Below the pieces are notes generated by a model. That model did no database searches and was not told where the DNA came from. It worked only from the letters and a program-made list of their open reading frames with translations. Source: Candidatus Heimdallarchaeota archaeon (GTDB lineage Archaea > Asgardarchaeota > Heimdallarchaeia > Heimdallarchaeales > Heimdallarchaeaceae). From it: DNA of 57,830 nucleotides. Positions within the stretch are counted from its first letter, which is position 1, and each line of letters opens with the position of its first letter. Positions 1,672 to 33,870 of this stretch are shown in pieces. The stretch spans positions 1-57,830 of the forward strand of contig JAGLXK010000282.1 of NCBI GenBank assembly GCA_023132955.1, written 5' to 3'. Position numbers and translations under genes: made by a program.

Positions 1672-3348
1672 ATGCTAGATACTGAAGAGTTTCAAAGAGC
1701 AAAGAAAAGAATACTTGAAAATAAAAGATTTTTACATGATTTGTCCTTTTTAGAAAATTACATAGATGATTTAGAACTTGTGTGTACTAATGAAAGATCA
1801 CTTGAATTAGCTTCTGTTCTGAATAGCATATTTATCAACATTGATGATATCGAAAGTGAAGATTTACGTTTAAAAATTCTAAATCTCTACTTTCAGCAAA
1901 TCTACTATTATGAGCAGAATCTAAATGAAGTCAAACAAATTCTAAAAAGAATGGAATCTATCGCCGCAAAATCTCAAAATGTAGAACATCTTGCTTATGT
2001 TTCTCTTTCAAAGTCTCTGGTAAAACGACTTGTTGGTTTAGTTAAAGATTCAAATTCACTAATATCTGATGCAATGAGTACAATAGAAATTAAAAGAGAA
2101 CAATACCCTGACACCTATTACAGAATTCTTTATACGTTTAGTATTTTCTCATGGATGAATAATAAAAATCACCTAGAAGTTATAAAAAATGTTGAAAAGT
2201 GTGTCAAATATTGGCATTCGAATCAAAATACTTTACCGATGATTACAGGGATTTTTAGATTGCTTAGATATTATAGTTTTTTAGGGAAAAAAGAAAAATT
2301 CAAACAGCTAATTTATTGGGTCTTTGAAGAAGAGAGAATGCAAGATAGCATACTTGACAGTCACTTTGCTTTACTCTACTCATTTGTTGGAAGGGTTTTT
2401 GCAATTAGATCTAGAATTGATGAAGCAATTCATTTTCTCTCAGATGCGTACAATAGAGTGAAAGAATCTAGCTCTCAAAAAACAAAGATGTATGAATATA
2501 TTGAGATTCTAAAGCTGCTATGCAGATGTTATGCTTTTCAAGGAAAATTTCAGTTGTCTTATGATACTTTAATGGAATTTTTAAATTTCATAGAAAGTGA
2601 TTTTGTGAAACAAAATTATCAAGGTATCAAAATGAAGAGATTATATTTTGGAGCATATTATACGCTATTATTTATTTTTGCTCAACTTGATATTAATATT
2701 GAAAATATTGAAGATGAAAAACTACGAAAGATTCATAACTATACAAAAACGCTTATTGAAAATTCTAATTTATCAGAAGAACTGCTATTTGATAATACAT
2801 TAGATGAACAACATCTAAATGAAATTAAGATTAAAAAAAGAACAAACCTTGATGAGTTTAATTTGCTGATTCATCAGCAATTACTTTCCTTAGAAGCCTT
2901 TACTGCTACAGATAAAACAATCGACAATCTCAGACTTATTAGAGATTATGTTTATAATCCATTATATGCAGATATTGTGCTTGGAAAAATTTATGTATCC
3001 ATTGGTAATTTCGAAGAATTTAGAGAAGTTGTTTTGAAAATAAGCGCACAAGAAGATCAAGCAGATACCCCTGTTCTAAAGTTGTGGATTAAACTATTCA
3101 AGTTGCTAAAAAGATACTTGGAAAATCCAGCAAATAAAGAGGTGTTAGAAGAATTTGGTGATTTGGCTATTTTTTGTAAAAATAACAATTTTATAAAAAT
3201 GGCAGAAGAGGTGAATCTTTTTCTAAAGTTAATAACCTCTACAAAAGCTATAGATTCTTTAGTTGATAAGTTTCAACAGACAGCTTTTGCTGATATTTAT
3301 GATAAACAATCAAAACAGATGGTTGTTGAATTTCTCGATAGTAAATGA
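1672..3348 (+). CDS. TPR-like alpha-solenoid protein (paralogue of 32296-33870)
   Basis: A 558-residue all-helical, charged protein with no signal peptide, membrane segment or N-terminal HTH. Helical pairs of TPR character recur through most of its length (for example around residues 75-130 and 230-330), suggesting a cytosolic solenoid that binds a peptide or protein. It aligns over its first half with the protein at 32296: '(E/R)L(V/I)C(T/A)NE(R/K)S', a shared YEQNL/HFKENL segment and '(R/E)MESIAAK/EMSQIATK'. The start ATG follows TTGTGGGGATAAAG. Downstream on the opposite strand lies a 20-residue microprotein gene (3398-3460). Two relatives of that microprotein sit next to the paralogue. 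Function is unknown; a receptor-like role for the short peptides is inference. Confidence 0.8.
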   Translation: MLDTEEFQRAKKRILENKRFLHDLSFLENYIDDLELVCTNERSLELASVLNSIFINIDDIESEDLRLKILNLYFQQIYYYEQNLNEVKQILKRMESIAAKSQNVEHLAYVSLSKSLVKRLVGLVKDSNSLISDAMSTIEIKREQYPDTYYRILYTFSIFSWMNNKNHLEVIKNVEKCVKYWHSNQNTLPMITGIFRLLRYYSFLGKKEKFKQLIYWVFEEERMQDSILDSHFALLYSFVGRVFAIRSRIDEAIHFLSDAYNRVKESSSQKTKMYEYIEILKLLCRCYAFQGKFQLSYDTLMEFLNFIESDFVKQNYQGIKMKRLYFGAYYTLLFIFAQLDINIENIEDEKLRKIHNYTKTLIENSNLSEELLFDNTLDEQHLNEIKIKKRTNLDEFNLLIHQQLLSLEAFTATDKTIDNLRLIRDYVYNPLYADIVLGKIYVSIGNFEEFREVVLKISAQEDQADTPVLKLWIKLFKLLKRYLENPANKEVLEEFGDLAIFCKNNNFIKMAEEVNLFLKLITSTKAIDSLVDKFQQTAFADIYDKQSKQMVVEFLDSK

Positions 3349-3397: not shown

Positions 3398-3460
3398 TTA
3401 AGGGTACCATTCAGGTGGTAAGCAATCATCGTCGTCTGTTGGGTCGTAATATCGCATCAT
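3398..3460 (-). CDS. Microprotein of the MM-YDP-DDD-PPxWxP family (20 aa)
   Basis: On the minus strand a 21-codon frame encodes MMRYYDPTDDDDCLPPEWYP. It is recognisable only because the two frames at 31656 and 32121 encode the same pattern (MM, YDP, acidic run, PPxWxP at the C terminus). The leader is also shared: CTATCCGAGATGAAATATGATG here against CTTTCCAAGAGTTGAAAC before ATGATG there. A TATA-like AGCTTAATATC lies at about 3504-3514. It converges on the TPR-like gene at 1672 and diverges from the ATPase at 3604. It has no signal peptide or membrane segment. Function is unknown. Confidence 0.65.
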   Translation of the reverse strand: MMRYYDPTDDDDCLPPEWYP

Positions 3461-3603
3461 ATTTCATCTCGGATAGTTTTACTGATATTTACCTCAAGAA
3501 AAGATATTAAGCTCCCAAAACATTTTGTGCCAACATCTAATTGGAAAAATATAGTTTTCACACTTTTTTTGGTATTTTTATATCCTAAGGTGGTCAATAT
3601 ACT

Positions 3604-31425: not shown

Positions 31426-31655
31426 TAGAGAGACATCTCTGAAAGTGAACTTTTGTTGAAAAACGTTCTTTTTCCTATACGGGGTTTTGTTTGGTTTAAA
31501 ATACAGTTTTAGAAACAAAGCTAAAATCAAAAATATCTGTAAGTGTTGAATATAAAAAAGTAAATTATTTCTGTTTCTTACCTGTCAGTCTTTTCTTCTT
31601 GTGTTTATGTATGTTCTTTCTTGTAATATTATAGTGCTTTCCAAAGAGTTGAAAC

Positions 31656-31727
31656 ATGATGTACGAACAAAAATACGACCCAGAAGATGGAGATGAAAGC
31701 ATAACTCCCCCATTATGGCTCCCCTAA
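31656..31727 (+). CDS. Microprotein of the MM-YDP-DDD-PPxWxP family (23 aa, copy 1)
   Basis: 24 codons beginning ATG ATG TAC, with the body KYDPEDGDESITPPLWLP up to the stop. It aligns with the frame at 32121 without gaps over 23 residues. The first eight residues are identical, and differences after that are mostly E/D, L/M or synonymous. The conserved serine is AGC here and TCA there. Predicted cytosolic, acidic, no signal peptide. Leader GCTTTCCAAAGAGTTGAAAC is shared with copy 2. A TATA-like TAATATTATAG lies about 25 bases upstream. Function unknown. Confidence 0.7.
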   Translation: MMYEQKYDPEDGDESITPPLWLP

Positions 31728-31820
31728 TGTAGAATTTTCTACTTATTTTTTATTTTTATTTCATTTAATTGTTCCATTCTTTTTTTGGAAATTTATCCAG
31801 TTCGCAAAATGACGAGGTTT

Positions 31821-31856
31821 ATCTTACCACACAAAATTAAATTTACGTGGTAAGAT
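31821..31856 (+). repeat. 36-base hairpin repeat, copy 1
   Basis: ATCTTACCAC (31821-31830) and GTGGTAAGAT (31847-31856) form a perfect ten-base inverted repeat around a 16-base AT-rich spacer (ACAAAATTAAATTTAC). The same element, with the same arm length and the same spacer length, occurs at 33933 and 57437 in the same orientation. Confidence 0.85.
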
Positions 31857-31880
31857 TTTCCAGCTCATTTTCGTTGGCGA

Positions 31881-31888
31881 TTTAAATC
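31881..31888 (+). promoter_or_regulatory. Putative promoter of the 23-residue frame at 31953
   Basis: GGCGATTTAAATC is a TATA-like box. The start would be near 31912, giving a 40-base leader with the ribosome site AGGTGATT. Confidence 0.35.
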
Positions 31889-31952
31889 TAGAAAAGTATG
31901 TAATTCATTCCCCTGTTTGTCATCCTTAAACAAGAATTCTAGGTGATTAACA

Positions 31953-32024
31953 ATGAAAAGTCAATATGATTTTATTGAAGAGACGATGGAATATTGCCAT
32001 CTGCTTGATAGCTTTAGATGTTAG
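31953..32024 (+). CDS. Small open reading frame with strong ribosome site (23 aa)
   Basis: ATG 31953 follows AGGTGATTAACA, the same ribosome site used by the ribosomal protein genes here. It encodes MKSQYDFIEETMEYCHLLDS plus FRC before TAG. No relative is seen elsewhere in the window. It lies between two microproteins of another family and after the hairpin repeat. The start signals make translation plausible; function unknown. Confidence 0.45.
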   Translation: MKSQYDFIEETMEYCHLLDSFRC

Positions 32025-32120
32025 ACTTCCTTTTTCTTTCTCTTTTATTGTCACATTTTTCTTTTGGGTGTTTTAATAGTTTCATTCCACTATTAGAGTA
32101 ACCTTTCCAAGAGTTGAAAC

Positions 32121-32195
32121 ATGATGTACGAACAAAAATACGACCCTGACGAAGGAGATGATTCAATACTACCTCCTGCATGGATGCCAAACTAA
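32121..32195 (+). CDS. Microprotein of the MM-YDP-DDD-PPxWxP family (24 aa, copy 2)
   Basis: 25 codons starting ATG ATG TAC, with the body KYDPDEGDDSILPPAWMPN. It is a duplicate of the frame at 31656, 465 bases away, and sits 100 bases before the second TPR-like gene. The 20-base leader ACCTTTCCAAGAGTTGAAAC is nearly the same as in copy 1 and related to that of the copy at 3398. TATA-like GTTTTAATAG (about 32070-32079) would start transcription near 32100. No signal peptide. Function unknown. Confidence 0.7.
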   Translation: MMYEQKYDPDEGDDSILPPAWMPN

Positions 32196-32254
32196 CATCC
32201 TCTCCTTTTTCCTTATTCTTTTTTCTTAGATTTTCCTTTTAAGTATTATCACGG

Positions 32255-32262
32255 TTTATAAA
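32255..32262 (+). promoter_or_regulatory. Promoter of the second TPR-like gene
   Basis: ACGGTTTATAAATG contains a clear TATA box, with a start near 32285 and a TTG start codon at 32296. Confidence 0.5.
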
Positions 32263-32295
32263 TGAATTTAAAGATTAGAGTGCGAGTGAGTAATA

Positions 32296-33870
32296 TTGAA
32301 AGAAGAATTAAGAAAATTGTTTGGAGAAAAACTGAAAGAAACTAATTTACCCTTAATAATCAATGAATTACGCATTCTATGTGCTAATGAAAAATCAAAA
32401 GATGTTCTAGAACTTGTAGATGGTGTTTTAGAGTATAGTAAATCTTCATCTGACTTAAAACTCGTAGTGGATCTATATGAACTCAAAATCAAACAACTGT
32501 ACCATTTTAAAGAAAATTTACCATTAGTAGAAGAGCTTTTAGAAGAAATGAGTCAAATTGCAACAAAAATTAACTACATCGAAGGTTTAGCACTGTCTTT
32601 TCAAATCAAAGGATACATTGAATTGCTGAAAGGAAATAGAGAAAGAAGCAACTATGAGTTTAGCCAAGCTGTAGAACTTCTTAGAAATTCAATACAAGCA
32701 GATTCATATGCTTACAACATGTGTAATTACTCCTATGCTGTAAGTAAGTGGTTATCCTGTAGAGATTTTAGTGTTGTGAGTATTTTGGAAAATTCTGCTG
32801 AATATTTCCATTTGAATTATTATTATCACGGTTTTGCAATGGCTTTAGGTATTTTAATCATAATTTATATGCAAACACAAAATAAAGAAAGAATGATGAA
32901 ATTAATTCGAAAAATTCTCAGTGGAAGAGAACTTTTGCTTAAAGCGCCTAAAGAAATCCAGTCAATGATTCATTACTTCATAGGTATTGGCCACGAGCTT
33001 AATTTAAACCTCGATGAAGCAAAAAAGCATTTACTAGAGTCTCAAGCTATTTTGAGACCCATATACAATAAGAGTATTTACTCAGGTTACTACATAACAG
33101 CCCTCTCTTACTTAGCTTCAACTTATGCACTTCAAGGAGAACTTGAATCTGCTCACAAACAAATGAAAGAAGTAGATGAATTAATTGAAGAAGGAATTGC
33201 TACAAGAAATCTAGATTCTTTCAGTAAAGAACAAATGAAACACATTTTTAATCTAACAAAATTCTATATTTTTTCAAGAATACAAAACTTTCGAATCGAA
33301 GATTTTCAAGTGTTGGTACAAACTATATTTGATAATGTTAGAAGATTTCAAAGTAATGCAATAATCTTTTGTGAATTTCTTTTGAATGCTAACCTTACCA
33401 AAGAGCAGCTGATTGAAATAAGAAACTTAAATAATCCGAGCACAAAAAGAGTAGAACACATCATAAATTTCCTTATCGAAAAAACAACAACTATTGATGA
33501 AAATGAAGTTATGCATTATACTTCTAAACTAAAAAGAAGACCTGTAGAAGACAGAATGACATTTACCGAGAAAGCTTTTGCTGACTTACTTGCGGCTCAA
33601 GAATATTATAAAATCAACCGGTTTGCAGAAATCTCCCCACTACTAAGAAAGTATGAAAATCAACTTCATAAGATAGAAGTGCTTGAAATGCGCGTTTTCA
33701 TGGAAGCTTTCATCCAAGTAGGGGCCTACAAGAATGGAGATTCATTGGGACCAGCTCTACAATACATGGCTATAAAGAAATGCAGACAGTATGGATTTAG
33801 TAGACTGGAGTATAAATTGTCAGATTATCTAACAATGCAAGGAAACGATACAATTAGAAAGATGCTGTAA
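32296..33870 (+). CDS. TPR-like alpha-solenoid protein (paralogue of 1672-3348)
   Basis: 524 residues, starting at TTG 32296: a stop just upstream in frame and no closer ATG make TTG the only long start. All-helical repeats with TPR features, for example ALSFQIKGYIELLKGNRERSNYEFSQAVELL (about 98-128) and SALSYLASTYALQGELESAHKQMKEVDEL near 270-300. No HTH, signal peptide or membrane segment. It aligns with the protein at 1672 over the N-terminal half. Two microproteins lie immediately upstream on the same strand. By analogy with Rap-type receptors a peptide-binding role is possible, but this is inference. Confidence 0.8.
   Translation: MKEELRKLFGEKLKETNLPLIINELRILCANEKSKDVLELVDGVLEYSKSSSDLKLVVDLYELKIKQLYHFKENLPLVEELLEEMSQIATKINYIEGLALSFQIKGYIELLKGNRERSNYEFSQAVELLRNSIQADSYAYNMCNYSYAVSKWLSCRDFSVVSILENSAEYFHLNYYYHGFAMALGILIIIYMQTQNKERMMKLIRKILSGRELLLKAPKEIQSMIHYFIGIGHELNLNLDEAKKHLLESQAILRPIYNKSIYSGYYITALSYLASTYALQGELESAHKQMKEVDELIEEGIATRNLDSFSKEQMKHIFNLTKFYIFSRIQNFRIEDFQVLVQTIFDNVRRFQSNAIIFCEFLLNANLTKEQLIEIRNLNNPSTKRVEHIINFLIEKTTTIDENEVMHYTSKLKRRPVEDRMTFTEKAFADLLAAQEYYKINRFAEISPLLRKYENQLHKIEVLEMRVFMEAFIQVGAYKNGDSLGPALQYMAIKKCRQYGFSRLEYKLSDYLTMQGNDTIRKML

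Follow-up and report, generated by a model that had tools for sequence, protein, structure and literature searches.

A family of about 130 microprotein genes, typically encoding 17–24 residues that end in Pro-Pro-x-Trp-x-Pro, is present in 19 of the 21 species genomes of one Heimdallarchaeota genus and in a sister genus (genome G021), and judged by position and subtype its members are paired with a family of TPR solenoid genes. We think it probable that each microprotein is a trans-acting ligand of the adjacent solenoid, whose diverged part would read the PPxWxP end and whose constant last ~80 residues would act on a shared effector. Both families are represented in the window, by which we mean the whole 57,830-nt stretch of DNA analyzed (contig JAGLXK010000282.1), where we annotated the following features:

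1672–3348, plus strand: subfamily-B TPR-like solenoid gene, 558 aa, of the same profile family as the gene at 32296
3398–3460, minus strand: B-type microprotein MMRYYDPTDDDDCLPPEWYP, read in the sequence and facing the TPR gene in convergent orientation
3461–3525, minus strand: upstream module of the B-type microprotein, an A/T-rich promoter-like region with a GAGATGA Shine-Dalgarno-like site
31596–31655, plus strand: upstream module of microprotein copy 1, with a GAGTTGA Shine-Dalgarno-like site before the ATG
31656–31727, plus strand: A-type microprotein, distal copy MMYEQKYDPEDGDESITPPLWLP
31728–31780, plus strand: poly-T tract that presumably terminates microprotein copy 1
32061–32120, plus strand: upstream module of microprotein copy 2, with a TATA-like GTTTTAATAG about 50 nt before the ATG and a GAGTTGA Shine-Dalgarno-like site
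32121–32195, plus strand: A-type microprotein, proximal (presumed cognate) copy MMYEQKYDPDEGDDSILPPAWMPN
32196–32235, plus strand: poly-T tract that presumably terminates microprotein copy 2 ahead of the TPR gene
32255–32295, plus strand: probable own promoter of the TPR gene, TTTATAAAT followed by GAGTGCGAGTGAG before the TTG start, read from the window sequence alone
32296–33870, plus strand: subfamily-A TPR-like solenoid gene, 524 aa, whose product is presumed to be the receptor

The preliminary description of this DNA had singled out the three frames at 3398–3460 (minus), 31656–31727, and 32121–32195, and all three are present exactly where it placed them. Copies 1 and 2 have a common N-terminus, as it had proposed, with nine identical first residues rather than the eight it counted, and the two TPR-like genes that it took for paralogs are homologous both by profile and by pairwise match (22% identity, E 8.5e-15), forming one profile family. 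A near-identical copy of the microprotein at 3398–3460, likewise convergent, lies beside orthologous TPR and HerA-like genes in locus L072. The interval between copies 1 and 2 also holds an inverted repeat, ATCTTACCAC...GTGGTAAGAT (31809–31868), for which an Rfam search returned just one miRNA hairpin match, below threshold.

Across 126 distinct copies of the microprotein, the invariant prolines are coded by all four codons and the aspartates by both, and for 106 cores of 17 codons the pooled nearest-neighbor pS was 0.40 and pN 0.06, a ratio of 0.15. A GTGAT/GTTGA-like Shine-Dalgarno site stands just 5′ of the ATG in 121 of 132 copies (92%), compared with 4.8% of random ATGs, and in 88% of copies the 60 nt after the stop include a run of five or more T, compared with 31% of large ORFs and 19% of random positions. 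Most copies also have an upstream module in common (122 aligned copies), in which a TATA-like element stands some 50 nt ahead of the ATG. The PPxWxP motif is C-terminal, with zero or one residue after it in 123 of the 126 copies, and conservation spans the entire acidic segment as well as this end. Since codons vary while residues are fixed, and since the copies carry Shine-Dalgarno-like sites and poly-T tracts, the microproteins are real genes under protein-level selection with expression signals of their own.

To delimit the family we used the pattern YDP-N9-24-PPxWxP, where N is a gap of 9–24 bases between YDP and PPxWxP. It gave 98 matches in 16 of the 21 genus genomes; 36 genomes from other genera had no match, nor did the reversed control pattern produce any. 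A looser pattern that included the stop codon was positive in 19 of the 21 genus genomes and in the single sister-genus genome G021, and produced scattered matches at control level only in the remainder of the 228 phylum genomes. The signal first described from three frames is thus stronger than claimed, as it extends to about 130 short genes. The preliminary description had also made its case depend on homologs in related genomes; nearly all of those searched proved positive, with intact frames under strong purifying selection. Named records with the TPR family are Candidatus Heimdallarchaeota MAGs. At locus L151, on a contig labeled Woesearchaeota, a TPR gene with 39% identity is accompanied by a degenerate microprotein, MQYKIDPDEGDGIIFPVTWTPN; this contig is probably a misbinned Heimdall one. 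A match to DPPLPPPIWRP in four genomes proved to run antisense to a conserved frame, and we discarded it. Among longer proteins, just one was found to have the motif near the C-terminus, a 93-residue frame (L166:1977–2258, minus strand) that ends in the microprotein-like DPEGEDDTLPPDWTPSKS.

Homologous microproteins do sit beside TPR-family genes, the association on which the same claim had been staked. A microprotein lies within 700 nt of 85 of the 97 TPR-family ORFs of at least 300 aa, and most proximal copies are 0–170 nt from the TPR frame. The 12 ORFs without a pattern match comprise eight of the distant subfamily C, two broken gene fragments, and two whose variants were missed by the regular expression (NDP in locus L086, PPMYYP in locus L098). 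Nearly every TPR gene of subfamilies A and B has a neighboring microprotein, and all the subfamily-B genes found besides the one in the window adjoin one too. TPR homologs are present in 20 of the 21 genus genomes, while microproteins and A/B TPR genes are both absent from genus genomes G006 and G013 and from the other sister genus, G022. Sister genus G021, which served as an out-of-sample test, has TPR genes that are 36–39% identical, with MMFDPTEPGDEEIMPPIWSP and its relatives upstream. No microprotein was seen at the subfamily C homologs checked (loci L089–L096); the same two large genes (c35 and c36) flank five of these eight loci.

The arrangement of the pair differs by TPR subfamily (Fisher p 3e-9): 93 of 102 A-type copies lie upstream of the TPR gene on its own strand, and 14 of 18 B-type copies are downstream and convergent. 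GD occurs in the acidic segment of 96 of the 102 A-type copies, compared with 3 of the 18 B-type ones (Fisher p 8e-12). The residues that precede PP and W track the relatedness of the TPR proteins in 66 proximal pairs. Since peptide type may correlate with TPR clade in part through joint inheritance, we compared tandem copies that share a TPR gene. Over 20 tandem sets, the residues preceding PP and W track the TPR protein in the proximal copy (p < 0.001 and 0.005) and do not in the distal one (p ~0.3); distal copies may be remnants of other cassettes. This comparison supports a cognate pairing of the proximal copy with its TPR gene, short of proving it. The residue after W differs between the proximal and the distal copy in 19 of the 20 sets, and because it changes faster than the TPR protein (14% the same at 60–70% TPR identity) it may be unconstrained instead of a specificity residue.

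Intact full-length TPR homologs have about 500–600 aa (stop-to-stop frames). Searched against Pfam, the window TPR proteins gave only sub-threshold TPR matches (best E 0.003), a PDB sequence search found only designed repeats and IFIT with weak E-values, and PADLOC and NCBIfam searches gave no convincing match and no match, respectively; no relatives were found among viral contigs. Two loci at which the microprotein is naturally in frame with the TPR gene were translated by read-through and folded with AlphaFold, using alignments of 49 sequences. The two models are confident all-helical TPR solenoids (pLDDT ~90, pTM 0.86 and 0.85), in which no DNA-binding or other extra domain was seen. In a structure search the closest proteins were TPR proteins in general (APC5, IFIT, SRP72), and the matches include Rap and NprR, with TM 0.5–0.6 by target length. 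The N-terminal tail is disordered, and its pLDDT exceeds 50 only at residues 15–18 (LPPL) in one model and, in the second, at residues 19–25 (GWSPN plus two residues of the linker), which weakly hints at peptide docking in the models and could also be an effect of conservation alone. Among 51 A-type proteins, the last ~80 residues are 71–79% identical, compared with 25–49% elsewhere. Gene conversion was rejected as the cause of this constant end, as 4-fold degenerate sites are hardly more similar there (0.45 in the C-terminal block, compared with ~0.40), which indicates that the block is kept by selection. The simplest interpretation is a TPR protein with a diverged reading surface and a constant output surface.

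The cassettes recur at a few intergenic slots, occupied in some genomes and empty in others: at a HerA-like gene next to 16S, at Orc1, between pyrophosphatase and PEPCK, and within the series c6-ABC-FtsX-c8-M42-Orc1. At five loci (L045, L044, L051, L064, L079) the TPR gene is broken by an in-frame stop or split and the microprotein is intact, and at four others (L057, L060, L072, L076) intact orphan microproteins stand without a TPR gene. An operon of an ABC ATPase and an FtsX-like permease recurs beside cassettes (L102, L009, L045, L046, L060, L071, L086), also in the sister genus; it is possibly a transporter or a positional bystander, and we did not accept it as an export or import partner, since it follows a conserved genomic slot. 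SBP_bac_5 oligopeptide-binding proteins number 5–30 per genus genome, compared with 2–6 in nine genomes that belong to other families within the order. They were not accepted as such partners either, being equally common in the pair-less G006 and G013. No modifying enzyme was found among the recurring neighbors examined, which are PEPCK, pyrophosphatase, Orc1, HerA-like, ABC/FtsX, M42 peptidase, and similar genes.

In the mechanism that we propose, each microprotein would be made from its own small gene, with a TATA-like promoter, a Shine-Dalgarno-like site, 17–24 codons, and a poly-T tract, and would be released as a free peptide acting in trans as the ligand of the next-door TPR solenoid. 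The solenoid would read it mainly by its free C-terminus, with the invariant PP, W, and P as a common anchor and the variable residues before PP, before W, and after W setting specificity. The peptide would be held in the diverged first ~440 residues, and the nearly constant last ~80 would offer an output surface to one common protein target, which would be switched when the peptide binds. Tandem microprotein copies and repeated insertion of cassettes could in this way yield several switches per genome. We infer the binding itself, the part that binds, the output, and the site of action, be it inside the cell or after export and re-import.

Action in trans is favored over action in cis because of the convergent copies and the intact orphan ones. 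If the microprotein were a cis-acting leader peptide, a regulatory uORF in which PP and W-x-P-stop stall ribosomes as in TnaC to control the downstream TPR gene, the upstream same-strand position of most A-type copies and the length of 20–24 residues, typical of leaders, would be accounted for. PP and Pro-stop are, moreover, slow-translation contexts. A leader lies upstream of the regulated gene on the same transcript, however, and neither convergent B-type copies nor orphans do. The whole acidic segment is conserved, beyond the C-terminal end, and the window TPR gene has an apparent promoter of its own; for A-type copies, it is only the poly-T tracts after the stop that oppose a shared transcript. 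We hold a leader peptide to be very improbable, and a degron receptor even more so. The latter would make the microprotein a substrate or adaptor of protein turnover, with PPxWxP as a tag read by the TPR protein. TPR proteins can indeed read C-termini, and the APPBP2-degron complex 8jal is among the structure matches, at a low TM-score, but apart from the 93-residue frame no longer protein was found to end in the motif, and we saw nothing that connects the pair with proteasome genes. Frames that are open by chance, or a repeat at the nucleotide level without coding function, would fit the several copies per genome and their common upstream module; this explanation is refuted at the sequence level, where synonymous sites have diverged while residues stayed fixed and the reversed control was empty, and we give it practically no credence.

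Very improbable, too, is a modified-peptide precursor or bacteriocin with the TPR protein as its chaperone or immunity factor. An N-terminal half that is acidic, the short conserved core behind it, the multiplicity of copies, and the variable core residues would suit a RiPP precursor, for which a modification enzyme is expected nearby; the neighborhoods examined contain housekeeping genes instead, the TPR genes have no match to speak for such a role in PADLOC or NCBIfam, and conservation includes the acidic half, beyond the core. The trans-acting ligand that we prefer has one specific form of its own, a secreted pheromone: cells would export and process the peptide and take it up again, as a signal of density or kinship. 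There are parallels to Rap/Phr (PMC5199041) in position and size, in the tandem duplicates whose ends have diverged, and in the large number of paralogous pairs, and the abundant oligopeptide-binding proteins and the ABC/FtsX operon at the cassettes, including those of G021, could provide for transport. Yet the microprotein is strongly acidic and has neither a signal sequence nor a hydrophobic segment, the operon may be a bystander in its conserved slot, and the oligopeptide-binding proteins are as common where the pair is lacking. The preliminary description had cautioned that a likeness to Rap/Phr need not mean secretion, and this caution holds, with the signal sequence absent and no exporter assigned. 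We consider the pheromone a tentative and rather unlikely possibility.

We found no earlier description of an archaeal peptide-receptor pair of this type in the open-access literature searched, and peptides of ~20 residues are below the size that homology search recovers reliably (PMC11364881). The family of ~130 members offers defined partner genes, a readable specificity pattern, and peptides short enough to be synthesized, in a host group close to the origin of eukaryotes; binding assays could thus test archaeal peptide regulation directly, with no need to culture the organism. It is conceivable, if doubtful, that the pairs amount to Asgard cell-to-cell peptide signaling independent of the Firmicutes RRNPP systems, with diversified PPxWxP pheromones, cognate TPR solenoids, and a shared output module.

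Among known systems, the small proteins of Methanosarcina and Haloferax are likewise archaeal, very small, and probably regulators of a larger partner protein; they are longer and are single genes. We know of no archaeal small regulatory protein that is a multi-copy peptide paired with a TPR family. TnaC-type arrest leaders resemble the microprotein in their 20–24 residues, in W and a terminal Pro before the stop, and in often lying just upstream of a gene, and differ from it in that the microprotein is followed by a poly-T tract, has convergent and orphan copies, and is conserved over its full length. Short hydrophobic peptide and ComS-type pheromones, exported by PptAB, are also short peptides without a Sec signal, with a C-terminal active part containing aromatic residues, like the presumed one of the archaeal microprotein. 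The remainder is basic and hydrophobic in these pheromones and acidic in the archaeal peptide, and no PptAB homolog was assigned.

The closest parallel is with the RRNPP pairs (Rap/Phr, Rgg/SHP, NprR/NprX, PlcR/PapR, PrgX/PrgQ). In them, too, a small peptide gene adjoins the gene for a TPR solenoid, a genome holds many paralogous pairs, and peptide copies stand in tandem with C-terminal ends that have diverged; the structural matches of the archaeal solenoid, which like Rap has no DNA-binding domain, include Rap and NprR. In the expansion of Rap-Phr, tandem phr copies and their divergence drive changes of specificity (PMC5199041), and the recurrence of cassettes, broken TPR genes, and orphan microproteins seen here resembles that expansion. 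Unlike in RRNPP pairs, the archaeal peptide is acidic, lacks a signal sequence, and is convergent in subfamily B, and a sequence relation is undetectable in Pfam profile and PDB sequence searches. Five criteria define RRNPP pairs: a propeptide of 10–100 aa, its secretion (by Sec, or by PptAB for SHP and PrgQ), a receptor of 250–500 aa, a TPR profile, and adjacency of −60 to 400 bp (PMC10075063). The archaeal microproteins fall within these limits in size and, for most proximal copies, in distance, and their partners stay below the Pfam TPR cut-off, yet homologous models are TPR solenoids. The window receptors, at 524 and 558 aa, exceed the range, and on inspection the microproteins have no hydrophobic stretch or basic-hydrophobic leader; export by some other route is conceivable. 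We therefore do not file the archaeal pair as RRNPP, though its mode of action may be like that of RRNPP.
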